Source: Candidatus Zemynaea palustris (GTDB taxonomy: Bacteria; Vulcanimicrobiota; Vulcanimicrobiia; Vulcanimicrobiales; Vulcanimicrobiaceae). From it: a DNA stretch of 55,427 nucleotides. A program made the translations under genes and the position numbers. Positions 6,928 through 46,038 of the stretch are shown here, piece by piece. The notes under the pieces were generated by a model that saw only the letters and a program-made list of their open reading frames with translations, was not told where the DNA came from and ran no database searches. The stretch spans positions 27,009-82,435 of the forward strand of contig PLCB01000023.1 of NCBI GenBank assembly GCA_003134695.1. The letters are read 5' to 3'. Within the stretch, counting starts at the first letter, position 1. Each line of letters opens with the position of its first letter.

Positions 6928-8502
6928 TTGGCCGTTGACGGCGACGCGGTCTCTCCGCTTTTTGAACTGACTCAGCTCCTCGACATCTTCCCGCTGCCGA
7001 TTCGGCAGGCGCTCGTTCGGCTCGCGAACCTCGAAGATCTGATCGAAGTCGTCCTCGACCTCGGCCGCCCGCCAGAGGCGCGCTTCACCGACGATTTCGT
7101 GTACCTCTCCGATCACAAGATCACGCTCGAAGATCTCGCGCACGTCATTTCGCGGCTCTCGGAGTTCGGTGCCGACAACCGAGCCGGGATCGAGCAGACG
7201 CTGCATCGCATCTCGGCGGTGCGCAATCGAAACGGCAAGATCATCGGCCTGACATGCCGCGTCGGCCGCGCGGTGTACGGCACGGTCGACATTGTCCTCG
7301 ACGTCGTGCGCAGCGGGAAGTCGATTTGCTTGCTGGGTCCGCCGGGCGTCGGAAAGACCACGATGCTGCGCGAGTGCGCGCGCACGCTGGCCGAGGACCG
7401 CAAGCGCGTCGTCGTCGTCGACACTTCGAACGAGATCGCGGGGGACGGCGACGTACCGCATCCCGGCATCGGTCACGCGCGTCGCATGCAAGTCGCCGAC
7501 CCGGCGTTGCAGCATCAGGTGATGATCGAGGCCGTCGAAAACCACATGCCCGAGGTCATCGTGATCGACGAAATCGGAACCGAAGCCGAGGCGATCGCGG
7601 CGCGCACGATCGCCGAACGCGGCGTCCAGTTGATCGGCACGGCGCACGGGCGGACGCTCGAGAACATCTTGATGAATCCGACGCTCTCCGATCTCGTCGG
7701 CGGCGTGGGAACCGTGACGCTCTCCGACGAGGAAGCGCGCCGGCGCGGGACGCGCAAGACCGTCCTCGAGCGCAAGGCGCCACCGACCTTCGACGTGCTG
7801 ATCGAGATCAACGATCGCAACCGGCTGTCGATCTACAAAGACGTCGGCGAGACCATCGACGCGCTGCTGCGCGGCTATCATCCTCAGCCCGAAGTCCGGC
7901 AGCGCATGCCGGGCGGCAGCGTGAGCGTCGTCCAAAAAGCCGTCCCTGTGCCGCCCAAACGTCTGGGGGCGATGGCAGCCGAGTTCGTGCCGGGTGAGGA
8001 CGAGGGCGACGAGTCCGAAACGCACGTCGCGATCTTCCCGTACGGCGTCTCGCGCAACAAGATCGAGCGCGCGATCTTAAATCTCGGCGTCGGCGCCTCG
8101 ATCGCGCGCAAATGGGACGACGCCGACGTCGTTCTTGCGCTCAAGACGCTCGAGAAGAAAGAGTCCGAGAAACTCAGGTCGATCGCGGCCGAGAACGTGC
8201 CGATCTATTCGGTCAAGACCAACACGACCGCGCAGATCATGGCGGCGTTGAAGGACATCTTCAACCTGCCTTCGATCGACGCCGAGGAAGTCGCGTTACG
8301 CGAGGCGGGTGAGGCGATTTACACCGTGCTGCTCGAGAATCGCACGGTCGAACTCTCGCCGCAGACGTCGTACGTGCGGCGCTTGCAACATCAGTTGGCC
8401 GAGCAGCATCGCGTCCAGTCGCGCAGCACCGGACTCGAACCGAATCGTCGCGTCCTCTATTCTCGCGCGCCTGAATTCTCCACGACCGGAGCATCCGCGT
8501 AA
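6928..8502 (+). CDS. R3H domain AAA ATPase (SpoIIIAA/Ycf45-like)
   Basis: 524 residues from a TTG with a good ribosome binding site (AGGGA, 6918-6922). The N-terminal ~110 residues resemble the SpoIIIAA adaptor region. Residues ~115-330 form a RecA/secretion-type ATPase: Walker A GPPGVGKTT (137-145), Walker B EVIVIDEIGTEAEA, sensor GTAHG. The C-terminus (~370-510) carries an R3H single-stranded nucleic-acid-binding segment with RLQHQLAEQHRVQSRS and EPNRRVLYSR. Homologues are Ycf45 of cyanobacteria/plastids and stage III sporulation AA; no sporulation genes are here, so a nucleic-acid role is likely. It lies directly before tmk and holB. The 3' end overlaps the presumed tmk start. Confidence 0.9.
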   Translation: MAVDGDAVSPLFELTQLLDIFPLPIRQALVRLANLEDLIEVVLDLGRPPEARFTDDFVYLSDHKITLEDLAHVISRLSEFGADNRAGIEQTLHRISAVRNRNGKIIGLTCRVGRAVYGTVDIVLDVVRSGKSICLLGPPGVGKTTMLRECARTLAEDRKRVVVVDTSNEIAGDGDVPHPGIGHARRMQVADPALQHQVMIEAVENHMPEVIVIDEIGTEAEAIAARTIAERGVQLIGTAHGRTLENILMNPTLSDLVGGVGTVTLSDEEARRRGTRKTVLERKAPPTFDVLIEINDRNRLSIYKDVGETIDALLRGYHPQPEVRQRMPGGSVSVVQKAVPVPPKRLGAMAAEFVPGEDEGDESETHVAIFPYGVSRNKIERAILNLGVGASIARKWDDADVVLALKTLEKKESEKLRSIAAENVPIYSVKTNTTAQIMAALKDIFNLPSIDAEEVALREAGEAIYTVLLENRTVELSPQTSYVRRLQHQLAEQHRVQSRSTGLEPNRRVLYSRAPEFSTTGASA

Positions 8503-9152
8503 GCAGGAACGCTTCGGGCCGGCCGCTCTTTGTCGTTTTCGAAGGCATCGAGGCCTCCGGGAAGTCGACCTTGCTCGCCGGCTTGGCGGAGCGGCTGCGG
8601 GCCGACGGCATCTCGGTCGTGACCACTCGCGAACCGGGTGGGACCCCACTCGGTGCGCGCATCCGCAGCTTGGTCCTGTCGCCGGAGGAACGCGTCGCGC
8701 CGGCGACCGAGGCACTCTTGATGACTGCCGATCGCGCCCAACACGTCGCAGACGTGATTCGACCGGCGCTGGCGCGGGGTGAGTGGGTCTTGTGCGACCG
8801 ATTCGCCACCGCGACGCTGGCGTATCAAGGCTTCGGTCACGGAGTTCCGCTTGGCACGCTGCAAAGCTTGATCGCGACGGCCGTCGGAACGCTCGAGCCC
8901 GATCTCATCCTGCTCGTCGACATTCCGGTCGATGTCTCGCGAACGCGGGTCGCCGCGCGCAGCGCCGACAGCGGTCGGCTGGCCGATAGGATGGAGCGGG
9001 AGGATGAAGCCTTTCACCGTCGGGTCCGCGATGGCTATCTGAGGCTGGCACGCGAGAACGCGAGGTTCCGCATACTCGACGGCTTACGGCCGGCCGAGAC
9101 ATTGATCGGCGAAGCGCTCGCGATCGTGCGCGAGAAAGCCGCGCAAGCATGA
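8493..9152 (+). CDS. tmk: Thymidylate kinase; start codon non-canonical or damaged
   Basis: Phosphorylates dTMP to dTDP. The P-loop FEGIEASGKST is in frame at ~8538-8570, then the substrate loop TREPGGTPLGARIR, the DRF motif LCDRFATATLAYQGFG and the LID region. The first ATG/GTG/TTG in frame (TTG 8571) lies after the Walker A lysine, so it cannot be the start of an active enzyme. Upstream to the in-frame TGA at 8472 the only near-cognate codons are ATT (8475) and ATC (8493); I give ATC, which makes 219 residues, near the family length. An indel in the assembly near 8500-8525 is an alternative. The stop overlaps the holB ATG (ATGA). Confidence 0.85.
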   Translation: MRVSRNASGRPLFVVFEGIEASGKSTLLAGLAERLRADGISVVTTREPGGTPLGARIRSLVLSPEERVAPATEALLMTADRAQHVADVIRPALARGEWVLCDRFATATLAYQGFGHGVPLGTLQSLIATAVGTLEPDLILLVDIPVDVSRTRVAARSADSGRLADRMEREDEAFHRRVRDGYLRLARENARFRILDGLRPAETLIGEALAIVREKAAQA

Positions 9153-10198
9153 CATCGACACCGCGCGGTTTCGAGTTCGACGTGGTCGGCGCGCGGTCGG
9201 CGCTCGCACTGTTCGGCGCGCTCGATCGCGCCCGGCTCTCGCATGGTTACCTGTTCACGGGCCCCGCCGGCGTCGGAAAGAAGACGTTCGCACGGCGGCT
9301 CGCGCAGTCGCTGCTCTGCGAGACGCCGAAGCTGACCCTGCTCGGCTACTGCAATCACTGTACCGGCTGCACGCTCTTTGTGGCGGGGACGCATCCTGAT
9401 TTCGTCGCGTCCGATGGCGTCGTCAAGATTGGAAAAGAAGCGGGCAGCGCGCTCCACGACGAGGAGTTAACCGCGCGCGACCTCGTGCGCGAGCTCTCGC
9501 TGCATGGCTATCGGAGTGACCATCGGGTCGTGCTCTTGGGCGACGTCGAGTTTGCGACGCACGAGGCGGCCAACGCGCTGCTGAAGTTTTTCGAAGAGCC
9601 GCCGGCCGGCGTGATCGTGATCCTGACGACCAATGCGTCGGGGACGCTCTTGCCGACGATTCGCTCGCGCTTCGTCGAGGTGCCATTCGGCGTGTTGACC
9701 GGCGACGAAGTCGCGCGTATCCTCGAACGTGAGGGGATTCCGGCGAAACGCGCGCGCATCGCCGCCGACGCGTCGCTCGGCAGCATCACCAGAGCGCGCG
9801 AGGTGCTCGACGGCGACGAAACCGGATTGCGGGGAGCGTCCTTCGCTTGGTTCGGTGAAACGATGGCCGGGCAAGTCGCCGATCACGGTTTTCTGCGGCT
9901 CGACGATCGCAGTCTTAGCGCCGGGGAGAAGCGCGCGCTGGTTGCGGAGATGCTCGAAGTGGTGCGCATCGCCGCGCGGGACTGGGCCGTCCTCGCGCTC
10001 GGCGGAAAAGACGCGCCGCTGCTCGCCCCCGATCAGAAGAAGCTCCTGGCCTCGGTTCCGAAGCGCAAACCGGAGGACGTCGTCGCGCTTCTCGCTGCGG
10101 TGGCCGACGTCGCCAAGTTATCGGAAAGCAACGTCTCGGCCGGGCTCGTCGTCGACTATCTTCGAATGCAGCTCGCCCCGCGTCCGAAACCGGCGTAG
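9149..10198 (+). CDS. holB: DNA polymerase III subunit delta prime
   Basis: 349 residues, ATG overlapping the tmk stop. Clamp-loader AAA+ subunit: P-loop-like GPAGVGKKT (38-46), zinc-binding cysteines C57, C68, C71 and C74 (YCNHCTGC), HPD motif, and the partner interface EEPPAGVIVILTT. The SRC arginine-finger motif reads IRSRFVEV, with Phe in place of Cys. The C-terminal ~130 residues are helical and divergent. tmk-holB adjacency, as in Firmicutes, favours delta prime over DnaX (tau/gamma). Confidence 0.88.
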   Translation: MTSTPRGFEFDVVGARSALALFGALDRARLSHGYLFTGPAGVGKKTFARRLAQSLLCETPKLTLLGYCNHCTGCTLFVAGTHPDFVASDGVVKIGKEAGSALHDEELTARDLVRELSLHGYRSDHRVVLLGDVEFATHEAANALLKFFEEPPAGVIVILTTNASGTLLPTIRSRFVEVPFGVLTGDEVARILEREGIPAKRARIAADASLGSITRAREVLDGDETGLRGASFAWFGETMAGQVADHGFLRLDDRSLSAGEKRALVAEMLEVVRIAARDWAVLALGGKDAPLLAPDQKKLLASVPKRKPEDVVALLAAVADVAKLSESNVSAGLVVDYLRMQLAPRPKPA

Positions 10199-10232: not shown

Positions 10233-10265
10233 CCGAAATGTACTCACATCGGGGAAACATTTCGG
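10233..10265. promoter_or_regulatory. 9-bp perfect inverted repeat before the coiled-coil gene
   Basis: CCGAAATGT (10233-10241) and ACATTTCGG (10257-10265) are exact reverse complements around a 15-nt spacer. The gap 10199-10292 holds nothing else clear. The repeat ends 27 bp before the next ATG and has no T run, so it looks more like an operator or 5' UTR hairpin than a terminator for holB. Confidence 0.4.
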
Positions 10266-10292
10266 CAATACTGAACGCCTAGCATCCCGTTT

Positions 10293-10685
10293 ATGGAAAA
10301 GCCGAAAAGAACGCGGGTCGCCAACGCCGATGTCCTCGCGGCAATCACCGAAGTCAAAGAGGGCCTCGGTCAAGTCGAACTGTCGATGAGCGCTATTTAT
10401 GACGAACTCATGCGCGTCAAGGCGACGGCCGAGAGGCACGATGAGGGCCTCGCTGCCCTCAAGGAACTCATGTGGCGCCGTCTTGACGCGCACGACGACC
10501 GTTTCGATGACATGGACAAGCGCCTCTCTTCGATGGGGAAACGGTTAGACGCGCGCTTCGACTCGATAGACCGGCGCTTTGACCAGATGGGGAAACGATT
10601 CGACCTGCGCTTCGACTCACTGGACGTCCGCTTCGATCGGCTCGACGCGCGCGTCGGCGTTCTCGAAGTGCGGCCAGCGCCTTAG
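10293..10685 (+). CDS. Small coiled-coil protein with RFD repeats
   Basis: 130 residues, hydrophilic. From residue ~60 on it is a repeated pattern: RRLDAHDDRFDDMDKRL, KRLDARFDSIDRRFDQM, KRFDLRFDSLDVRFDRL, with RFD/RLD recurring every 7-11 residues, which predicts a long amphipathic coiled coil. The N-terminal ~25 residues are basic. No membrane segment or catalytic motif. Such coiled coils occur as stand-alone oligomerisation or DNA-associated proteins; the function is unknown. The stop codon interlocks with that of the convergent membrane gene (TTAG). Confidence 0.7.
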   Translation: MEKPKRTRVANADVLAAITEVKEGLGQVELSMSAIYDELMRVKATAERHDEGLAALKELMWRRLDAHDDRFDDMDKRLSSMGKRLDARFDSIDRRFDQMGKRFDLRFDSLDVRFDRLDARVGVLEVRPAP

Positions 10686-11425
10686 TAGTAGCGCCTTCCG
10701 TACGAGATATCCGCGTACGTCTTCGCCAGGACGAGGGCGACGTAGCCGGACAGGATCGCTTGGATCACCGCGACCGTGAGGGCGGTAATAACGCTCGATG
10801 ACGGAGCGCCGAGCGAGGTCAGCCAGAGGAACATGTAGCCGGTCGCATAGGCGTTCAGGATGTAGAACGTCCCGATGTAGATGACGAAGACAGCGAGCGT
10901 CGGAAGCACGTTGGCGCGCGCGCGTTCCAGCGAAACTTGCAGCGCGGCCCCTCCGGGGATGCCGCCGATCGCCGCCGCCGGCATCGTATAGATGAAGAAG
11001 AATAGCGCGATCGCGCCCAGGCCGAGCGCGCCGATGCCCCCGAGGAACATCGACCCGATGTAGCTCGCTACGAACACGAGGAAGTTGAAACCGAGGGCGG
11101 CCATCAAGATGTCGGGCAGTTTGCGGCGTGCATCCTCCCACGCTTCGTCGAAACCCGCTCGACCGCGCCGCCACGCGATGTCGCCGACGATGATCGCGAT
11201 CGCGAGGCCGACCGAGTTGAGGAGTTGCGCGACGAGCTGGGTGAGCGAGGCGTTCAGCGTCCCGATCACGCCGCCGCTCAGCATGCTCCCGGCCATCAGC
11301 ATCAGGACGCTCTGCAAGAGCGACGCCGCAAACGGCGCCAGCAGAATCGACGGGTTGCGTACGAGCAGGCCGATCGATTTGAAGTAGGCCGCCGGATCGA
11401 GGCCGGAACCGCTGCGCAGGTTCAG
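10682..11425 (-). CDS. Multi-pass membrane protein, probable CTG start overlapping mtnP stop
   Basis: 247 residues with five or six hydrophobic helices (about residues 25-45, 50-75, 110-150, 170-195 and 205-235) separated by short loops, and a C-terminal YADISYGRRYY tail. Similar poly-topic proteins carry DUF-type glycerophosphoryl-diesterase or Yip1-like membrane domains; I do not recognise the family firmly. The sequence LNLRSGSGLDPAAYFKSIGLLVRNPSILL... starts with CTG overlapping the mtnP TGA as CTGA, analogous to ATGA coupling. The next ATG (about 11310) would cut into the first helix. The longer open frame upstream is a shadow of mtnP. Confidence 0.75.
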   Translation of the reverse strand: MNLRSGSGLDPAAYFKSIGLLVRNPSILLAPFAASLLQSVLMLMAGSMLSGGVIGTLNASLTQLVAQLLNSVGLAIAIIVGDIAWRRGRAGFDEAWEDARRKLPDILMAALGFNFLVFVASYIGSMFLGGIGALGLGAIALFFFIYTMPAAAIGGIPGGAALQVSLERARANVLPTLAVFVIYIGTFYILNAYATGYMFLWLTSLGAPSSSVITALTVAVIQAILSGYVALVLAKTYADISYGRRYY

Positions 11426-37930: not shown

Positions 37931-38911
37931 CTAACCTTCCGTTTCGGCGTGGTCCTCGACGTGATAACGGCCCAGCGGCAGAATGGCGACGAAGCGCGAG
38001 CCGCCTTCGAGCGCGATCTCGCCGCCGTGGGCGCGGGTCACCCAGCGGCAAATCGCGAGCCCGAGACCGCTTCCCGCCGAATCGTGACTCTTGACGAAAC
38101 GTTCGAACAGCCGCGCGCGCAGCTCGTGCGGGACGCCGGGTCCGTCGTCCTCGACGCTCAGCTGCGCCCAGCGCCCGGCGGCAGTCGTCACCGTCACGTC
38201 GACGCGCGAGCGCGCATGGCGCACGGCATTGGCGATCAGGTTGCGCGTGAGTTGATCGAGGCGCCGTCCGTCGCCTTCGATGATCGCGCTCTCGAGGTGC
38301 GTTTCGATCGCGACCTCGGGCCGCACGCTCGCGAGTTCGCGCGCGGTGCGATTCGCGATCGCGGCCAGATCGACGGGCTCCGTGTCGAGGACGTCCGTTC
38401 CGCCCTTGCGCGCCAAGGTCAGAAGATCGGAGATGAGTTTTCCCGTCTCGAGCGCGCGTCGCGCGATCGTCGCAAACGCGTCGCGCTCCTGGGTTGTCGT
38501 CGCACCGTCCCGCGCGGCTTGGGCGACGCTCGCGATGACGCTGAGCGGCGTGCGCAGTTCGTGCGCGACGTCGGCGGCGAAGCGCTCTTCGCGTCCGCGC
38601 GCCAGCGCGAGCGGCCGCACCGCGGCGCGCGCGAGCCCGTACGACGCGAAGCCGACGGCGAGCACCAAGCCGGCGTCGATGAGGAGAAACGAGAGCGCGC
38701 GAGCACGTTCGTAGCGCGCGAGGGTCGCCGCACCTTCGGGCGTGGTAAGAAGCGGTTCCAGTGCGTCGCGCGCGCTGCGGTCGACGTAGACGAACGCGAC
38801 GATGCTCAGAGCGAGGATGACCGCGATGAAGATCGCGAGATACGACGCGGTCAGCCGGCGGATTATCCGGCCTTCGAGATCCCCTCGACGAGCTTGTATC
38901 CGACCCCCCAC
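37931..38911 (-). CDS. Sensor histidine kinase
   Basis: 326 residues from the GTG at 38911, which overlaps the response regulator by 49 bp. Homology begins only at IIRRLTASYLAIF, so an ATA (38866, forming ATAA with the regulator stop) or CTG (38854) start is also conceivable. Two membrane helices (~22-45 and ~85-110) flank a short extracytoplasmic loop of ~35 residues. H-box ADVAHELRTPLSV, N-box NLIANAVRHA, G1 DDGPGVPHELRARLFERF, G2 GSGLGLAICRWV. No HAMP domain is obvious. Pairs with the overlapping regulator and sits at the end of the cupredoxin/cytochrome-porin operon. Confidence 0.9.
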   Translation of the reverse strand: MGGRIQARRGDLEGRIIRRLTASYLAIFIAVILALSIVAFVYVDRSARDALEPLLTTPEGAATLARYERARALSFLLIDAGLVLAVGFASYGLARAAVRPLALARGREERFAADVAHELRTPLSVIASVAQAARDGATTTQERDAFATIARRALETGKLISDLLTLARKGGTDVLDTEPVDLAAIANRTARELASVRPEVAIETHLESAIIEGDGRRLDQLTRNLIANAVRHARSRVDVTVTTAAGRWAQLSVEDDGPGVPHELRARLFERFVKSHDSAGSGLGLAICRWVTRAHGGEIALEGGSRFVAILPLGRYHVEDHAETEG

Positions 38912-39552
38912 ACCGTCGCGATCGTCGCCGTCGAGTTCATGCGCTTGAGTTTGCGGCGCAGTTGACTCACGTAGACGTCGACGATGTTGCTCGACCCTTG
39001 GAAATCGTATTCCCAAATCTTCTCCAGGATTTGCGCTCGCGAGAGCGTCATCCCGCGATTGCGGGCAAGAAACTCGAGCAGACGAAATTCAGTGGCGCCG
39101 AGCTCCAGGAGTTGTTCCGCGATCGTTGCGACTCGGGCCTTCGGATCGATCTCAAGCGACCCGACCTTGAGCACGTTCGGCTGTGGCGGGCGGTCGCCCC
39201 GGCGCAGCAGCGCGCGTAGCCGCGCCGCCAGCTCCTCGTCGATGAAGGGCTTGATGAGGTAGTCGTCCGCGCCGGCGTCGAGCCCGCGGATCCGATCTTC
39301 CACGGCATCTCGGGCGGTGAGGATCAAGAGTGGGGTCGTGACCCCTTCGGCCCGCGCGTTGCGGCAGATCGAGAACCCGTCGCGCTTGGGCAGGATGACG
39401 TCGACGATCGCGGCGTCGTAGACCCCGCGCAAGAGGCATTCCAAGCCGCTCTCACCGTCCGAGGCGACGTCGACGGCGAATTTCCGCCGCAGGAGCATCG
39501 TCCGGATGGCCTCGGCGATCTCGGGATTGTCCTCGATCAGGAGTACGCGCAT
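38863..39552 (-). CDS. OmpR-family response regulator
   Basis: 229 residues from the ATG at 39552 (MRVLLIEDNPEIAEAI). Receiver with phospho-acceptor Asp51 (IVDVILPKRDGF), LTAR and the conserved Lys in YLIKPF; then a winged-helix output domain (~130-225: LEFLARNRGMTLSRAQILEKIWEYDFQGSSNIVDVYVSQLRRKL). Starts 14 bp after the cytochrome-porin stop, which suggests it controls that locus. Upstream codons in frame are not needed. Confidence 0.94.
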   Translation of the reverse strand: MRVLLIEDNPEIAEAIRTMLLRRKFAVDVASDGESGLECLLRGVYDAAIVDVILPKRDGFSICRNARAEGVTTPLLILTARDAVEDRIRGLDAGADDYLIKPFIDEELAARLRALLRRGDRPPQPNVLKVGSLEIDPKARVATIAEQLLELGATEFRLLEFLARNRGMTLSRAQILEKIWEYDFQGSSNIVDVYVSQLRRKLKRMNSTATIATVWGVGYKLVEGISKAG

Positions 39553-39565
39553 CTGCTTACCAGTA

Positions 39566-40717
39566 TTATAGGTGAGACGGCCAGGGGATGGCGACGGTAA
39601 ACTCACCGCCATAGGTGGGACCTCCGCGTAAGAGATTGTTGCTGCGCTGTAGGGTGAGCCGCGCGTGCGGCGTCAGGAAGGTGCCGACGTAGAAGACCAG
39701 GTCCCGTTCGGCGATCGGGGCGGCCGCAGCGTCGTAGCGCGTCGCCACGAACAGGTGCGGGGTCACGAAATACTTGAGGCGAGCCCAGCCGCCGCTCGAG
39801 TTGGTCGGATCGCCGAGGGCGTCGGCGTTGTCGTCGCGGCCGATCCACTGCTGGGCTTCGAGGTCGAGGCGCTTGTTGAAAAACGTGGTGTGGACGCCGG
39901 CGTTGAAACGGCGATAACCGTCGTCGACAGGCATGCGGCCCGGGAGCGTGATCCGGCGCGAACCTTCGATGACCGCGCCGTTGAGGTCGAAGTTCCGGAA
40001 GAGCGGGCCTTTGCCGAAGAGCGCGACTTCAGGCGCTGCGTTGATGGTCGTCGTCCCGGTCGAGATCGGTGCGCCGCCGTACGCGGCGCCTTTGAATTCG
40101 CCGAACGAGATCTCGCCCGCGAGCCGCGTGCTTCCCGTCGTGCGTTCCTCTTCGATCCCGAGCCGCGGTGCATTTAGCGCCAAGTCGTTGTGGCCGACCG
40201 AGAGCCCTTCGTAACCGTAGCCTGAGACCGAGTCGAGCCGCTGACCGGGCGAGTGCGTCAGGGGCAGCTCGAACAGTCCGGCGCGATAGAGCGACTTGGT
40301 CGCATCGTTGTGATACGAGAGGAAGCCGAGGAAAAAGCTGCTGGGCGCGCCGCTCGAGCCGAGTGTGTAGTGCAGATATGCGTTCACTGCACCGACGTCT
40401 GCGTCACCGAGAATCGCGGCCGACGGCGTGAAGCGTCGTGCGCCGGCTGCCGGATCGCGTTCCCACTCGACGTTATAACGAAGCGCGGCGATGGTCGTTC
40501 CGTGGCGCGGGACATTCGGCGGAAGGCGGTAACCGCGATTGCGGAAGTCGTTTCCGAAGTCGTTGAGTTCCGGCAGGACGGTGTGACAAGCTTTGCACGT
40601 CAGTTGGTAGCGCTGTGCAAAGACCGGCATCGCCTCGGCTCGCGCGCCCACGACTACGCAGCATGCGACAGCTGCGATCACTCCTGCGAAAAAGGCCCGC
40701 AGGACGTTAGTGTACAT
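39566..40717 (-). CDS. Outer-membrane heme-c/porin fusion, Cyc2-like
   Basis: 383 residues. Signal peptide (1-29, AFFAGVIAAVACCVVVGARAEA), then MPVFAQRYQLTCKACHTVLPELNDFGNDFRNRGY with one heme-c motif CKACH (41-45). The remaining ~310 residues alternate polar and aromatic beta-strand-like segments and end ...GGEFTVAIPWPSHL, as in a monomeric outer-membrane barrel. This N-terminal pattern (A-P-x-F-A ... CxxCH ... P-x-L-x-x-FG-x-x-F-x-x-x-GY) is that of Cyc2-type cytochrome-porins, which oxidise extracellular Fe(II) in iron oxidisers; related proteins of unknown role also exist. Overlaps the cupredoxin gene by 11 bp. Confidence 0.8.
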   Translation of the reverse strand: MYTNVLRAFFAGVIAAVACCVVVGARAEAMPVFAQRYQLTCKACHTVLPELNDFGNDFRNRGYRLPPNVPRHGTTIAALRYNVEWERDPAAGARRFTPSAAILGDADVGAVNAYLHYTLGSSGAPSSFFLGFLSYHNDATKSLYRAGLFELPLTHSPGQRLDSVSGYGYEGLSVGHNDLALNAPRLGIEEERTTGSTRLAGEISFGEFKGAAYGGAPISTGTTTINAAPEVALFGKGPLFRNFDLNGAVIEGSRRITLPGRMPVDDGYRRFNAGVHTTFFNKRLDLEAQQWIGRDDNADALGDPTNSSGGWARLKYFVTPHLFVATRYDAAAAPIAERDLVFYVGTFLTPHARLTLQRSNNLLRGGPTYGGEFTVAIPWPSHL

Positions 40718-41195
40718 CTATTTCGGCTCGCATGGGCGTCCCATAGTGATAGAAGCAACCGTAGATGTAGCGTCCCGCGACGTCGGCGAGAATCGGTGCC
40801 GAGACAGCGCCCGCAACGAGGTTGCCGGACGAGAACCCGCCGGAAAGCGTCGAGCCGCTGGCGTTGAGCGCGGCATTGGAGAACGGATAGGTGGTCGGGT
40901 ACGTCGCGCCGGCGATCGACGTGGCGGTGTGCGCGAAGCCGTCGCTGTTCTGGAAACGGACGTACGTGCCGACGGCGACGATCGTGGCGAGCGGCTTATA
41001 GCCGCCCGCGGGACCGGCGGCCGTCGTCCCGCCGGGATCGAGCGTCAGATCGACGTCGATCGTCGTGATCTGTGCGCCGGAAGGCAGCGACCCGCCGCCG
41101 CTGGGCGGGGCCGACGCGCCCGGCGTGCAGGCGGCTGCGAGCACGAGGAGAGCAACGAGAATTGGCAGTCGCACCGGCCGAGCGTACTCATGCAA
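40707..41195 (-). CDS. Cupredoxin-like lipoprotein
   Basis: 162 residues. Lipobox LAAAC (Cys23). After a Gly/Ser linker, a small beta domain (~40-162) carries likely type 1 copper ligands: His89 in SDGFAHTAT, then Cys147, His150 and Met155 in YGCFYHYGTPMRAEI (C-x2-H-x4-M, the plastocyanin spacing). Anchored in the envelope, it could pass electrons to or from the heme-porin whose gene overlaps it. A second, related protein lies at 44250-44864. Confidence 0.8.
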   Translation of the reverse strand: MHEYARPVRLPILVALLVLAAACTPGASAPPSGGGSLPSGAQITTIDVDLTLDPGGTTAAGPAGGYKPLATIVAVGTYVRFQNSDGFAHTATSIAGATYPTTYPFSNAALNASGSTLSGGFSSGNLVAGAVSAPILADVAGRYIYGCFYHYGTPMRAEIDVH

Positions 41196-41246: not shown

Positions 41247-42050
41247 TTAAATCGAGTCGCGCATCGAGTTGGCGAGTTCGCGCAACGACGGGTCCTGCGC
41301 GCTCTGGGCGGCCGCTTCGAAGGCGAGCCGCGCCTGATCGCGCTGTCCTTCCCGCAGAAGCACGGCACCGAGCGCGAACCTCGCGCGGGCAAATTGCGGC
41401 GCGACCGCGAGCGCGGCGCGCAGATCGCGCTCGGCGTCCGCGAGCCGTTCGAGCTTCATCTCGGCGAGGGCGAGATCGTAACGCGCCGTGGCATACGTCG
41501 GATTCGCCTGCAACAACGCACCGAAATCGTGTAAGGCGGTCGCCGCATCCCCGCTTTTCAGCGCGATCAGCCCGCGTTCGTACAGCCCGCGGGCCGAGTC
41601 GGGATGCCGCGCCAGCAGATCGTCGGCGGCGCGCCGTGCGGCCGCGAGGTTGTTGCGCATCAGGTTGACGGCGATCAGATCGACGCGCGCCGCGAAAAAA
41701 TCAGGATCGAGCGCGATCGCCGCGCCGAACGACGCGACCGCCGCATCGAGCTGACCGAGATGCGCTTGCGCCAAGCCGAGGTCGTAGCGCGCCGTCGAGC
41801 CCTGCGGCTCCTTCGGATCGAGCGTGAGAACGCGGCCGAACTCGGCCGCCGCGCGTTTCCAATCACCCTTCAGTTCTTCGCGAAATCCGAGCTCGATGCG
41901 CTCGCGAATCTCACGCTGCCGCGCGACGTCGAGCAGCGCCGCCGCGTCGGTCGTACGCGGTAGGGGACGCGGCTGCGGATAATCTTGTGCGCCCGCGATT
42001 GCGGGCGCAAGCAGAATCAGTATCGCGGCCGCCGCCCCGAGCCGAACCAC
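41247..42050 (-). CDS. Secreted TPR-repeat protein
   Basis: 267 residues from a GTG one base after the preceding stop. Signal peptide (1-21, ending AIAGAQ). About five tetratricopeptide repeats (~55-265; for example ARYDLGLAQAHLGQLDAAVASFGAAIALDP, ARFALGAVLLREGQRDQARLAFEAAAQ). Periplasmic scaffold, possibly for assembling the copper/heme proteins encoded next to it. No enzymatic motif. Confidence 0.88.
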   Translation of the reverse strand: MVRLGAAAAILILLAPAIAGAQDYPQPRPLPRTTDAAALLDVARQREIRERIELGFREELKGDWKRAAAEFGRVLTLDPKEPQGSTARYDLGLAQAHLGQLDAAVASFGAAIALDPDFFAARVDLIAVNLMRNNLAAARRAADDLLARHPDSARGLYERGLIALKSGDAATALHDFGALLQANPTYATARYDLALAEMKLERLADAERDLRAALAVAPQFARARFALGAVLLREGQRDQARLAFEAAAQSAQDPSLRELANSMRDSI

Positions 42051-42051
42051 G

Positions 42052-42297
42052 TTAGCGGCTCGTGTCGTCGGGGAGTTCGGCCTCGCGCACCCGAGCGGCT
42101 CGAGCGGCCTTCTCCGGGGTGCAATCCCATCCGGTGCGGCCCATCGAGTTGATCGGGCCGAGTAGCGCGGATGGGGAAGAAGCGAGCGATTGCGCCACCG
42201 CCAGCTCGTCGAACGAGGCGCGAGCGAGGCCCACGCCGCCGAAGATGAGAACGACGACGGCTAGCGGGATTGAAAAGCGCGCCAGAACGCGTGGCAT
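42052..42297 (-). CDS. Small secreted or membrane-anchored protein, hypothetical
   Basis: 81 residues. Hydrophobic N-terminal segment (~8-27, IPLAVVVLIFGGVGLARA) reads as a signal peptide or anchor. The mature part is short, with LLGPINSMGRTGWDCTPEKAARAARVREAEL and a single Cys. First gene of the leftward operon and tightly coupled (TAAC-GTG) to the TPR gene. No recognised family; the coupling and codon usage support it being real. Confidence 0.6.
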   Translation of the reverse strand: MPRVLARFSIPLAVVVLIFGGVGLARASFDELAVAQSLASSPSALLGPINSMGRTGWDCTPEKAARAARVREAELPDDTSR

Positions 42298-42328: not shown

Positions 42329-44173
42329 TTGCTGAAGCGCCTTTTGTTCGTGGCCGCGCTGGCCCTGACATGCTCGCCGTCGGCCGAGGCCGCCGACGAA
42401 GCTTCGTCGCTCCTCGTCGGAAGCGTGCGCGATCAAACCGGGCGGCCCATCGCCGCCGATGTCGTAGCGTACACGAGCACGGGGCTCGTCGCCGGCCGCG
42501 ACCGCAGCGCCGCCGACGGGACCTTCGCGATTGCTTTGAGCGGCCCGGCGACGAGTCTCACGGTCAGCTGCTTCCACTGCGCCCCGCTGAATCGAGCCCT
42601 GACCGGCGATGGGCCTCTGGCGCTGATCGTGACGCGCTACCGCGCGCTCGATCAAACTGGGCCAGACGCGCGAGACCTCCAAGTCTTGCCGTACGACGAC
42701 GCGGGCGACGCCGCGGGCCTTGGGCGCTTTGTGATTCCGATCGCGGCGGGGGCGCGCATCGCCAGCCTCTCAGATCGTGGACTCGAACTCGGCCGCGGAC
42801 TCATCCTCGATGAAGGCGCACCGATTTACGATCCTGCGAGCGGTGAAGGTGCATTGTTCGCGTATCCCGCCCACTCCGTCGGCGCAATCCGCACCGCGCC
42901 CGCATCGCGCGCGTTCACCTACGGAAGCTACGCCGGCGGCGGCGCGTTCGCGCTTAGCCGATTTGGTGAGGATTCCGCGCCGAACGCCGCCTGGGATCCC
43001 GGCCCGTCACCGGCGTTCTCGTTCGCGGAACGACTCGGCTCGCTACTGCCGGCGGTCGCGCGCTCGCACGATGACGACGGCGTCGAGCGACGTCGCGCAG
43101 ATCTCGGTTGGGAAAGCGCCTTCGCGGGGGGGACGCTGCGCGCCGACGCCGGCCTCGCCTCCCAACATCCCGACGATCTTTCGATCGCCGAAGATCGCTC
43201 GCGCGAACTCGCGAGCTTCAGTTACGCGACGGCGGCGCGGCGTTCGCGGACCTTCATTGGTGCGAGCGCATATGCGGACCGCAGTAGCTTCTTGCTGCGG
43301 CCGGGCGGCGCGGTTTGGACCAGCCGTTCGAGCAGTCTGGAGGCGGACGCGCGCGTCGAACATCCTGCGCCGATCGAATTGGATTTCGGCGGTTCGCTGC
43401 GTGCCTCGAGCGGCATGTTCACCGTCGGCGCCACGAGCCGCAGCGCGAATTACGCGAACGCGCTGGGCTACATCGAAGCTTCGCACGCCGGGACGCTTTC
43501 GTACGACGTCGGGATTGCGGTTTCGAGTCTTGCGATTTCGCCGAGCATCTACGACACGGTACGCGCGGCGACCATCGTGTTGCTGCCGGCGGCGTCGGTA
43601 ACGGCTGATCTCGGCGGTGGTTTTCAGGTTCGAGGTGGCGGATCGACCTCGGTTCGCGCGCCGACCTTGCTCGAGCTGCCCACGACCGTCGGAGCGAACG
43701 CGTATTCGATCGAGCGCGGCAACCTGATCGAGACCGCGCTCTCCTATGATGACGCGCGGCGCTTCGAAATCGAGGCGACCGCGTTTCGCCAGCAACTTAC
43801 GGGCCTCGGCGGCCGAACGCTGAGCGGCGTCGGTTTCGGGTTTGCCTGGCAGGTCGCTCCGCGTCTTTCGCTGCGCGCGTGGACGCTGCACGATGCTTCG
43901 AACGACAGCGGGACGAGTCTCTTGATCGCACCGTACGCGGCGCTGGCCGGACCGTCGCTCGAGCGCGACGTCGTTTGGGCGTCGTACGAAGCTCGCGGGG
44001 GTCTGCGGGCCGACGCGATCGTTCACCATAGTACGCTGCCGCTCTCGACCGGCACGAGCGTCGATGCGGACCTCGTCGTTCCACTCACGCGCGCGATTGG
44101 GTTGACCATGGGGACCGCGCAGCGGGCAGCTGTGCGGCGCACATATCTCGGCTTGCGCTTTCAGACTCAGTGA
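42329..44173 (+). CDS. Compact TonB-dependent receptor-like outer-membrane protein
   Basis: 614 residues from a TTG. Signal peptide (1-21). Carboxypeptidase-regulatory-like beta domain (~28-100, LVGSVRDQTGRPIAADVVAYTS) with a CxxC (SCFHCAP), a shortened plug-like segment (~150-220, LGRGLILDEGAPIYDPASGEG...TYGSYAGGGAFALSRFG), and ~380 residues of barrel-like strands ending YLGLRFQTQ. Likely transports or exposes a ligand at the outer surface, possibly copper or iron in this context. Begins ~30 bp from the divergent small-protein gene, so the two operons share a promoter region. Confidence 0.8.
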   Translation: MLKRLLFVAALALTCSPSAEAADEASSLLVGSVRDQTGRPIAADVVAYTSTGLVAGRDRSAADGTFAIALSGPATSLTVSCFHCAPLNRALTGDGPLALIVTRYRALDQTGPDARDLQVLPYDDAGDAAGLGRFVIPIAAGARIASLSDRGLELGRGLILDEGAPIYDPASGEGALFAYPAHSVGAIRTAPASRAFTYGSYAGGGAFALSRFGEDSAPNAAWDPGPSPAFSFAERLGSLLPAVARSHDDDGVERRRADLGWESAFAGGTLRADAGLASQHPDDLSIAEDRSRELASFSYATAARRSRTFIGASAYADRSSFLLRPGGAVWTSRSSSLEADARVEHPAPIELDFGGSLRASSGMFTVGATSRSANYANALGYIEASHAGTLSYDVGIAVSSLAISPSIYDTVRAATIVLLPAASVTADLGGGFQVRGGGSTSVRAPTLLELPTTVGANAYSIERGNLIETALSYDDARRFEIEATAFRQQLTGLGGRTLSGVGFGFAWQVAPRLSLRAWTLHDASNDSGTSLLIAPYAALAGPSLERDVVWASYEARGGLRADAIVHHSTLPLSTGTSVDADLVVPLTRAIGLTMGTAQRAAVRRTYLGLRFQTQ

Positions 44174-44249: not shown

Positions 44250-44864
44250 ATGCAATTACGTACTTCAGCCACGCTCCTGGTCGTCGCGCTTGCCGCCCTG
44301 GCTACCGCCTGCGGCGGCGGCGGTGGCGGCGGAATCTCGCCGGGCGGCACAACCCCAACGCCGGCTCCGACGAACTCGACAAGCTCGCAGCAAGTCGTGC
44401 GGCTTGCCCTCCCCACCACGGCGATCGGCGTCGAAAATGATCCGACGTTCGGGTTGGTCGCCGGTTACACGCAGACCAACTTCTCGCAAGTCCTCGGCTT
44501 CGCGCCGGGCGCGCAGATCATGATTCAGAACGCTCAAAGCGCGGCCAGCGCAACGCCGCACACGCTCGGCGACACCGGCGGCACCAACGGCTTTAACTCG
44601 GGCGCCGCCCTCTCGTTGAGCGCGTCCGGCGGCTCGACGCTCTCGAGCGGTTTCCAAACGGGGACGCTGAATCCGGGCCAAATCGTCGGCCCCTTTACGC
44701 TGGCCTCAGGCACCTATTACATCGGTTGTGCCTATCACTACGTCAGTAACCAAATGCGCGACGTCTTGGTGGTCGCCGCCGGTGCGCAACCTGGTCCGCA
44801 GGCGACGCAACCGCCGAACACTGCGACGCCCCCACCAGCGGGCGGCGGCGGCGGCAGCTACTAG
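44250..44864 (+). CDS. Cupredoxin-like lipoprotein, second copy
   Basis: 204 residues. Lipobox ATAC (Cys21) followed by a Gly run. Beta domain (~48-175) with candidate copper ligands His104 (SATPHTLGD), Cys160, His163 and Met169 in IGCAYHYVSNQMRDV (C-x2-H-x5-M, one residue longer than in the paralogue at 40707). Shares the GC-x-YHY signature and the GSTLSSGFQTG / GSTLSGGFSSG motif with that paralogue. Ends in a Pro/Gly-rich tail. Followed 15 bp later by a SCO copper chaperone gene, which supports copper binding. Confidence 0.78.
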   Translation: MQLRTSATLLVVALAALATACGGGGGGGISPGGTTPTPAPTNSTSSQQVVRLALPTTAIGVENDPTFGLVAGYTQTNFSQVLGFAPGAQIMIQNAQSAASATPHTLGDTGGTNGFNSGAALSLSASGGSTLSSGFQTGTLNPGQIVGPFTLASGTYYIGCAYHYVSNQMRDVLVVAAGAQPGPQATQPPNTATPPPAGGGGGSY

Positions 44865-44878
44865 GATCGAGCCGACTG

Positions 44879-45424
44879 GTGCGTTTCCTTGTGCCAATCA
44901 TCCTGATCTTTCTCGCGTGCAGCGTACGAGTGCTCGATGCACGCGAGGAGGACCCACGTACGATCCCGCTGGTCGATCAGCATGGCGTGCACTTCACGCT
45001 GGGCGATCTGCGCGGGTCGCCCGTGTTGGTCACGTTCGTTGCGACGCGCTGCACCGATGCGTGTCCGATCGCCACCGCTACGTTCTCACGGCTGGACGAT
45101 CGGCTGCACCGGGCGCGCGTCGCAGCGACGCTGGTCGAATTGACGCTCGATCCGGCGTACGACACGCCGTTCGTGATGCAGCAATACGCACGCACCTACT
45201 CTGCCGGAGCCTCCGATTGGCGACTGGCAAGTGGGACGCCGACGAACGTACGCGCGCTCATGCGAGCCTTTCACGTCACCGCGACAAAAGGGCGCGACGG
45301 CATACCCGACGTGCACTCGAGTTTCGTTTACTTTTTCGACTCGCAGGGGAAGCAGTCACGGACGCTGTTGCTCTCGACGAACTTAGTCGACGAAGCTCTC
45401 CACGCGCTCAAGCCGGCGCGTTAA
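44879..45424 (+). CDS. SCO1/SenC-family copper chaperone
   Basis: 181 residues from a GTG. N-terminal membrane anchor (~1-20). Thioredoxin-like fold with copper ligands Cys58 and Cys62 (TRCTDACP, CxxxC) and His146 (PDVHSSFVYFF). SCO proteins deliver copper to CuA or other cuproproteins, or act as thiol-disulfide oxidoreductases. No cytochrome oxidase genes are in the window, so its client here may be the adjacent cupredoxins. Confidence 0.9.
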   Translation: MRFLVPIILIFLACSVRVLDAREEDPRTIPLVDQHGVHFTLGDLRGSPVLVTFVATRCTDACPIATATFSRLDDRLHRARVAATLVELTLDPAYDTPFVMQQYARTYSAGASDWRLASGTPTNVRALMRAFHVTATKGRDGIPDVHSSFVYFFDSQGKQSRTLLLSTNLVDEALHALKPAR

Positions 45425-45427
45425 GCG

Positions 45428-46038
45428 ATGCTCGTTGCCACCCTCGCCGCCGCGCTGTCGGCGCTGACGCTCGAATGGTCGCACGTCCAGGATTAAGCCT
45501 GACGATCGACGCCCGTGAGTTTCGCCAGGGCCGCAGCCAGCAAGAGATCTTGCGCTACTCCTACCGCCGGCCGAATCGCGCGCGGCTTGAGATCCTCGAC
45601 GGTCCGCAGCGCGGTGCCGTCGTCGTGTGGTTCGGCGACGAGCGAGCGACGGCGTACCGGCGCGGATTGCGGCTCTTCAAGCTACGTCTCGCGCCGAGCG
45701 ACGAGCGCGTCACCTCGCTGCGCGGCAACGGCGTAGTGACGCCGAGCTTCGACGCGCTTCTGGCGTGTTTCGCCGACCGCCGCTCGCGGGTGACCGAGGG
45801 ACCGGGTCCGCGCGTCGACGGAATACCGACGGTTGCGATCGCGCTCGAATACGCTGGTTTCATGTGTCCGACCGACTCGCCGTTCGATCGGGACGTGACG
45901 CGCGACGTGCTCTACGTTTCGTCGAAGACGAAGCTGCCGGTCTTGCGCGAACGCTACGCCGCAGAACAATTGGTCGAGCGCTGGCAGTTGCGCGACCTGC
46001 GACTCAACTCAGGCCTGACCGATTCAGTCTTCCGGTAG
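45428..46038 (+). pseudogene. LolA-fold (DUF1571-like) secreted protein broken by a one-base deletion
   Basis: A signal peptide and family start (MLVATLAAALSALTLEWSHVQD) are read from the ATG at 45428 and stop at TAA 45494-45496. The rest of the protein continues in the +1 frame from about 45496 (SLTIDAREFRQGRSQQEILRYSY...). One base restored between 45495 and 45496 (TAA to TAY-A) gives HVQDYSLTIDAREF, matching the family pattern in which a Tyr follows the leader. A leaderless start at the ATG 45475 is possible but less likely. Conserved parts: RARLEILDGPQRGAVVVWFGDE, RGNGVVTPSFDALLACF, CPTDSPFDRDVTRDVLYVSSKTKLPVL. Could be an assembly error, a recent mutation or programmed shifting. Confidence 0.75.

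Follow-up and report, generated by a model that had tools for sequence, protein, structure and literature searches.

The locus raises the question of whether a porin carrying a single c-type heme serves its host as an electron inlet, as Cyc2 does in iron-oxidising bacteria, and which partner would take the electrons on. The window, by which we mean the whole stretch of 55,427 nucleotides that was analysed, belongs to a genome of 2.7 Mb that is 97% complete (G000). An earlier note, made from the letters of the window, had placed a Cyc2-like open reading frame in it, with one c-type heme motif fused to a barrel and a length fitting 16 strands. Below, the gene is compared with Cyc2, then its neighbours and its relatives are considered.

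The heme porin gene and its relation to Cyc2

The reading frame, with an ATG start, fills the proposed interval exactly (Table 1). The precursor N-terminus reads MYTNVLRAFFAGVIAAVACCVVVGARAEA followed by MPVFAQRYQLTCKACHTVLPELNDFGNDFRNRGYRLP, with MYTNVLRAFFAGVIAAVACCVVVGARAEAMPVFAQRYQLTCKACHTVLPELNDFGNDFRNRGYRLP as the opening residues; the signal peptide was called by eye, and cleavage probably falls within the AMPVFAQRY motif, after AEA. Exactly one CxxCH follows, the CKACH at residues 41-45. Given a family match in 52 of 60 related genomes, orthologs that are 31-62% identical and 45 invariant columns in a 42-sequence ortholog alignment, this is a real gene and no chance frame; the invariant columns include C12, C15, H16, P20, L22, N23, F25 and G26 (mature numbering). 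TAG codons flagged in three orthologs have coordinates that fit terminal stops and were dropped.

Database names were of little help. Pfam and NCBIfam give the heme porin none, with only a weak Cytochrom_C match (0.01), and phmmer against the PDB returned only weak BtuB matches, probably by chance. A single-sequence scan of the genome contigs found no match, and an alignment query then returned 51 loci. The family-profile scan of the named genomes confirmed these 51 relatives, whose titles comprise 44 Eremiobacterota, Eremiobacteria or Eremiobacter, one Proteobacteria and six other bacterial MAGs. From these titles we place the host bacterium in the Eremiobacterota (WPS-2, Vulcanimicrobiota).

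Table 1. Features of the heme porin locus, in window coordinates
Feature	Position	Strand	Remarks
Sensor histidine kinase, short extracytoplasmic loop	37931..38911	-	Pfam HisKA + HATPase_c; conserved order
OmpR-type response regulator	38863..39552	-	Downstream of heme porin; Pfam Response_reg + Trans_reg_C; conserved order
Cyc2-like monoheme cytochrome-porin (HPOR)	39566..40717	-	Precursor 383 aa, mature ~354 aa; 16-strand AlphaFold model, OprP/OprO fold
His321 (mature H292)	39755..39757	-	Periplasmic turn 6; His in 41/42 orthologs
DDNADA (DxDNxDG-type, calcium-loop-like)	39818..39835	-	Loop 6, between strands 11 and 12
CKACH heme c attachment motif	40583..40597	-	C, C and H invariant in 42 orthologs; P-E-L (PXL) four residues on
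AMPVFAQRY motif	40607..40633	-	Residues 29-37; counterpart of Cyc2 AXPXFAR[QK][TY] (PMC8406198)
CUP1, lipoprotein-type cupredoxin (plastocyanin-like)	40707..41195	-	Overlaps heme porin start by 11 bases
CUP1 type-1 copper loop C-F-Y-H-Y-G-T-P-M	40731..40757	-	C147, H150, M155; fourth ligand H89
TPR protein with signal peptide	41247..42050	-	Pfam TPR; same place in many relatives, conserved operon member
81-aa small protein	42052..42297	-	Sometimes conserved; no family
TonB-dependent-receptor-like outer-membrane protein	42329..44173	+	PF00593 E 9e-5, below cut-off; divergent, conserved in place
CUP2, second lipoprotein-type cupredoxin, GCAYHYVSNQM (C-x2-H-x5-M)	44250..44864	+	33% identical to CUP1
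SCO1/SenC-type copper chaperone or thioredoxin-fold protein	44879..45424	+	PF02630 E 7e-22

Published criteria for Cyc2 are a CXXCH, the motif AXPXFAR[Q/K][T/Y] just upstream of it (called unique to Cyc2), a PXL 4 aa downstream and a length of at least 365 aa (PMC8406198). The heme porin has the single N-terminal CXXCH behind a signal peptide, the PXL (CKACH-TVL-PEL, with P and L invariant in 42 sequences) and, at 383 aa, the length. It departs from Cyc2 in the upstream motif, where AMPVFAQRY keeps A, P, F, A and Y but has Q for R and R for Q/K. The form A-x-P-x-F-A-[QE]-R-Y is found in all 22 rows of an ortholog alignment chosen regardless of the motif; the later 42- and 51-member sets were selected with the FA[QE]RY pattern and cannot test it. 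Because the motif differs, a standard Cyc2 motif screen would drop the window family.

The kinship is nevertheless detectable at the N-terminus. Over the first 39 residues, BLASTP finds 46% identity to a bona fide Cyc2, and hhalign of the two families gives a probability of 96.6 (E 6.9e-10) over columns 1-60 only; on this profile-profile match, the cytochrome segment is homologous to Cyc2. Cyc2 proteins of Acidithiobacillus, Mariprofundus and Gallionellaceae share with the window family the signal peptide, the P-x-F-A upstream of a single CxxCH with its PXL, and an F-G..F-[KR]..G-Y behind the heme motif (PMC8406198). The barrel has no detectable sequence similarity to Cyc2 and cannot be aligned to it, and the Cyc2 porin domain is itself described as poorly conserved (PMC8406198). 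The earlier suggestion that the N-terminus follows the Cyc2 pattern holds as homology of the heme segment and is not supported at the defining motif.

A tblastn search of plasmids with the heme porin found only the N-terminus of one Caballeronia Cyc2, which led to six plasmid-borne Cyc2 references (Caballeronia, Paraburkholderia, Ideonella, Acidithiobacillus ferrooxidans, Polymorphobacter and Methylocystis). In an unrooted 49-row tree whose only Cyc2 members are these six proteobacterial proteins, with cluster 1, the biochemically tested trio and sequences from Mariprofundus, Leptospirillum and the Acidithiobacillus chromosome outside its scope, the six group together (support 100/100), set off by a branch of 2.71 changes per site. 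Heme porins of the Eremiobacterota make up four further groups: HP, the window family, as its own clade (support 86/85); F2, marked by FAH.YG; F3, marked by FA[QK]AYG; and F4, of about 600 aa. Since the published motif is not there and the family has its own clade in this tree, we name the protein Cyc2-like, a protein that probably works like Cyc2, without assigning it to Cyc2. A strict-motif Cyc2 elsewhere in the genome is unsupported: a Cyc2 profile matches the same heme porin families over about its first 109 positions only, and the search of the own genome retrieves the window heme porin (E 8e-6).

AlphaFold, given the mature protein with 41 locus orthologs, modelled exactly 16 strands (pLDDT 83.7, pTM 0.82), the first at 47-57 and the last at 339-348. 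Cyc2 shares the 16-strand OprO/OprP-like barrel, and OprP and OprO are the templates reported for Cyc2 of Mariprofundus (PMC8406198). Foldseek matches of the model are general porins. In VIA-align, OprP (2o4v, Z 23.2) and OprO (4rjw, Z 23.0) rank highest, matching over residues 1-348, and other porins reach about Z 22; as the margin, some 1 Z unit, is narrow, we do not rely on this ranking alone. Weak Porin_O_P matches occur in 7 of 42 family members. Barrel fold and strand number are thus those of the OprP/OprO phosphate porins, at 11% identity, whereas the N-terminal heme segment is found only in the heme porin. With a barrel in the model and no placement within a clade of non-electron-transfer porins, neither outcome named by the earlier note as speaking against it was observed.

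Two short helices flank the CxxCH in the model, at low confidence (block means 46-65). If both barrel termini face the periplasm, the usual arrangement in barrels of this kind, loop 6 lies on the extracellular side. There, a D-x-[DN]-x-D-[GA] stands in 41 of 42 orthologs, and both of its Asp (mature D266 and D270) are invariant. The pattern is absent from the 14 F2-type rows, and in the six Cyc2s its single match is at an unrelated place. On the periplasmic side of the model, H292 is the best candidate for a second axial heme ligand.

CUP1 and the conserved neighbourhood

The window family also differs from the plasmid Cyc2s in its gene neighbours. A c-type cytochrome gene lies directly downstream of Cyc2 in five of the six references and upstream in Paraburkholderia; the window family has an upstream cupredoxin instead. 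Counted by motif, 50 of 51 named loci have a cupredoxin frame adjoining the heme porin, and the CUP1 stop falls within -76 to +47 bases of a point set 25 codons ahead of the P.FA motif. The exception, L061, carries its copy elsewhere in the locus, and L102 is cut by a contig end. In an unbiased protein clustering, the CUP1 family was the second most widespread neighbour (17 of 20 neighbourhoods), in a cluster to which linkage had also added SCO1 and CUP2.

CUP1 appears equipped to carry electrons. Its copper ligands H67, C125, H128 and M133 are invariant in 43 aligned sequences and present in the window copy; the rows were picked by a C..H..M pattern, and H67, being outside that selection, is independent of it, as is the passing of the pattern by 50 of 51 neighbouring frames. 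The order H, C, H, M is that of plastocyanin and pseudoazurin type-1 sites, and both proteins are found by the CUP1 profile in the PDB. The model (pLDDT 92) has the cupredoxin fold, with AcoP of Acidithiobacillus among its matches. At E up to 0.1, PF00127 is matched by 42 of 43 members; taken singly, the window copy scores under the Pfam cut-off (12.5 vs 21.2 bits). A lipobox was found by pattern in 43 of 50 copies. CUP1 resembles plastocyanin and pseudoazurin in its C-x2-H-x4-M loop, N-terminal His ligand and fold and differs in being lipoprotein-type, in the longer stretch between ligands and in its tie to a heme porin.

Around this pair, the order in relatives is a divergent TonB-receptor-like gene, TPR, CUP2, SCO1, CUP1, heme porin, response regulator and kinase. 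CUP2 lies inside the operon, and SCO1 between CUP2 and CUP1, in many relatives; in the window, both have been shifted beyond the TonB-receptor-like gene. The response regulator probably starts at MRVLLIEDN. The TonB-receptor-like barrel, usually divergent from the operon, has no clear plug domain and carries a CFHC motif near its N-terminus. A 187-aa protein (45475-46038) without a Pfam or NCBIfam match adjoins SCO1 and stays near the cluster in a few relatives.

In Acidithiobacillus, too, cyc2 is found together with cupredoxins, in the rus operons (PMC10654088). The rus operon (cyc2-cyc1-cup-cox-rus) similarly links a cytochrome-porin gene with cupredoxins (AcoP/Cup and rusticyanin). It includes a diheme Cyc1 and cox genes, which the window cluster lacks; the window cluster, in turn, has its lipoprotein cupredoxin directly upstream and adds a two-component system and a TonB-like receptor.

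A proposed path for electrons and its alternatives

We consider it probable that the window heme porin acts in the manner of Cyc2, as an electron conduit of the outer membrane, and passes electrons inward via blue copper. The short N-terminal cytochrome segment, with its heme on CKACH, would sit at the periplasmic mouth of the 16-strand OprP-like barrel, and a small reduced solute entering the pore from outside would reduce the heme; reduction at this mouth has been argued for Cyc2 from barrel size (PMC8406198). The heme would then hand its electron to the co-encoded, membrane-anchored CUP1, from which it would reach the caa3 oxidase, probably through CUP2 or a soluble carrier, and then oxygen. 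SCO1 would serve copper loading, and the two-component system, made up of the response regulator and kinase, probably regulates the operon. We infer that the heme porin is in the outer membrane and loaded with heme, and likewise infer the inward direction and the docking of CUP1.

The heme motif, barrel model, copper site, operon and caa3 oxidase (in this genome with a cytochrome c fused to subunit II) were all found by computation and speak for this path, as does an independent pairing of heme porin and copper protein, a paralog with a CuA-type cupredoxin (L035). The N-terminal homology to Cyc2, the OprP/OprO-type fold, the cupredoxins of the rus operons and the DxDNxDG loop on the outer face speak for it as well. 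Against it we count the differing Cyc2 motif, the barrel without Cyc2 sequence similarity, the low confidence of the heme segment, in which AlphaFold placed no heme, and the origin of many relatives from peat and permafrost sites rather than classical iron mats. So, too, does the sole RuBisCO match in the genome (L117, 1396-2613, G000:C15) count against it, in that autotrophic iron oxidation is not suggested. This homolog was rejected as a sign of autotrophy: its active-site motif is altered, and its closest models, MtnW-like, are below cut-off, making it form IV-like. A heterotroph gaining extra electrons is therefore likelier than an autotroph.

A cupredoxin as partner speaks for electron transfer without pointing to any one donor. 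Among single candidates we tentatively rank Fe(II) first. Fe(II) is oxidised by each of the three cytochrome-porins that have been tested biochemically (PMC8406198), which weighs against a different donor. The same conduit might instead, though somewhat doubtfully, serve Mn(II), Cu(I), reduced humics or other small organics, or a partner cell. In favour of such a donor, the barrel motifs differ from those of Cyc2, the family forms a diverged clade of its own, and a Cyc2 homolog is tied to electron uptake from an electrode in Ca. Tenderia (PMC5371394). The barrel offers a further hint: of its eight invariant Arg, seven are in strands (R51, R116, R156, R241, R298, R309 and R324), suggesting a charged pore, and the fold is that of OprP, an anion porin with an arginine ladder. 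Even so, peat and permafrost, where Fe(II) is often abundant, would supply the conventional donor.

It is rather unlikely that the locus is a copper-homeostasis or redox-sensing module, in which heme porin and cupredoxins would sense or oxidise Cu(I) at the outer membrane and signal via the two-component system, with the TonB-like receptor and SCO1 handling copper. SCO1, two cupredoxins, a TonB-like receptor, an OmpR-type regulator and a kinase do share one conserved neighbourhood, and the regulator scores 192 bits against the heavy-metal CopR/SilR subfamily. However, the cut-off there is 279, the kinase scores 101 against 293, and many other families score alike, so that a CusRS-type copper system was set aside as unsupported. 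The extracytoplasmic loop of the kinase is short, unlike that of CusS. Intact type-1 sites, moreover, mark electron carriers rather than chaperones, and the surroundings of the window cluster showed no CopA, Cus or Pco-like gene.

Electron export, with quinol-derived electrons leaving via cupredoxin and heme to an outside acceptor, is improbable: sequence cannot reveal direction, but blue-copper carriers and Cyc2-type hemes are high-potential (+208 mV for Cyc2 PV-1), a better fit for feeding an oxidase than for reducing minerals. A nutrient porin in which the heme peptide merely gates or blocks the pore would fit the OprP-like fold and the conserved loop 3 but is very improbable, given the conservation of the PXL and of the residues flanking CxxCH and the tight linkage of the gene to that of a cupredoxin.

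Heme porins across the Eremiobacterota

The conduit proposed here has relatives in its own genome, which encodes two further single-heme porins. One of them (L035, 8933-10129, G000:C41) overlaps the gene of a single-domain CuA-type cupredoxin and has a three-heme cytochrome c (10259-11290) after it; the pair spans 8496-10129, and radical SAM genes lie upstream. The cupredoxin, related to CoxB, has the pattern C-x3-C-x3-H-x2-M in the sequence HCHLPCGPGHDKM. In another genome (L135, G025:C7:6500-17500), two tandem F3 heme porins each have a CuA-type cupredoxin gene directly upstream. That heme porins of this phylum are repeatedly paired with copper proteins argues for a function in electron transfer.

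The other groups have neighbours of their own. A YceI-family gene comes directly after the FAH.YG-type (F2) heme porin in L119 (5842-6375), L120, L124, L127, L129, L130 and L132. F4 heme porins, of about 600 aa and with CHTTFPGMT.YGMM or similar, occur in L125, L136 and L137, with a lipoprotein-like gene beside two of the three.

Previous work has touched on these proteins lightly. A Cyc2-like gene was found by BLAST in Eremiobacterota MAG 15 from the Cabin Branch acid mine drainage, and that paper's main text contains no operon, cupredoxin or subfamily analysis (PMC8357290). Coming from the same phylum, the gene may belong to one of the heme porin subfamilies described here. The word Cyc2 is absent from the paper on the first cultured member of the phylum (PMC9758169), and our literature search found no paper joining Eremiobacterota heme porins with cupredoxins.

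The Cyc2-type design is known from iron-oxidising bacteria, and the window family is a separate, little-described branch of it. With some reserve, we suggest that the Eremiobacterota may hold a radiation of monoheme cytochrome-porins apart from Cyc2, with at least four subfamilies, of which the window family would pair with a blue-copper lipoprotein and another with a single-domain CuA protein, and a third is found next to YceI. The window family could then be a heme-to-copper outer-membrane inlet with a calcium-type outer loop, giving widespread soil and permafrost bacteria an undescribed lithotrophic or electron-scavenging side metabolism. The tight pairing of heme porin and cupredoxin offers a defined two-protein system for testing how a single-heme porin hands electrons to the periplasm. 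If this reading is true, an almost uncultured phylum of acidic soils, peat and permafrost owns a distinct outer-membrane electron inlet.
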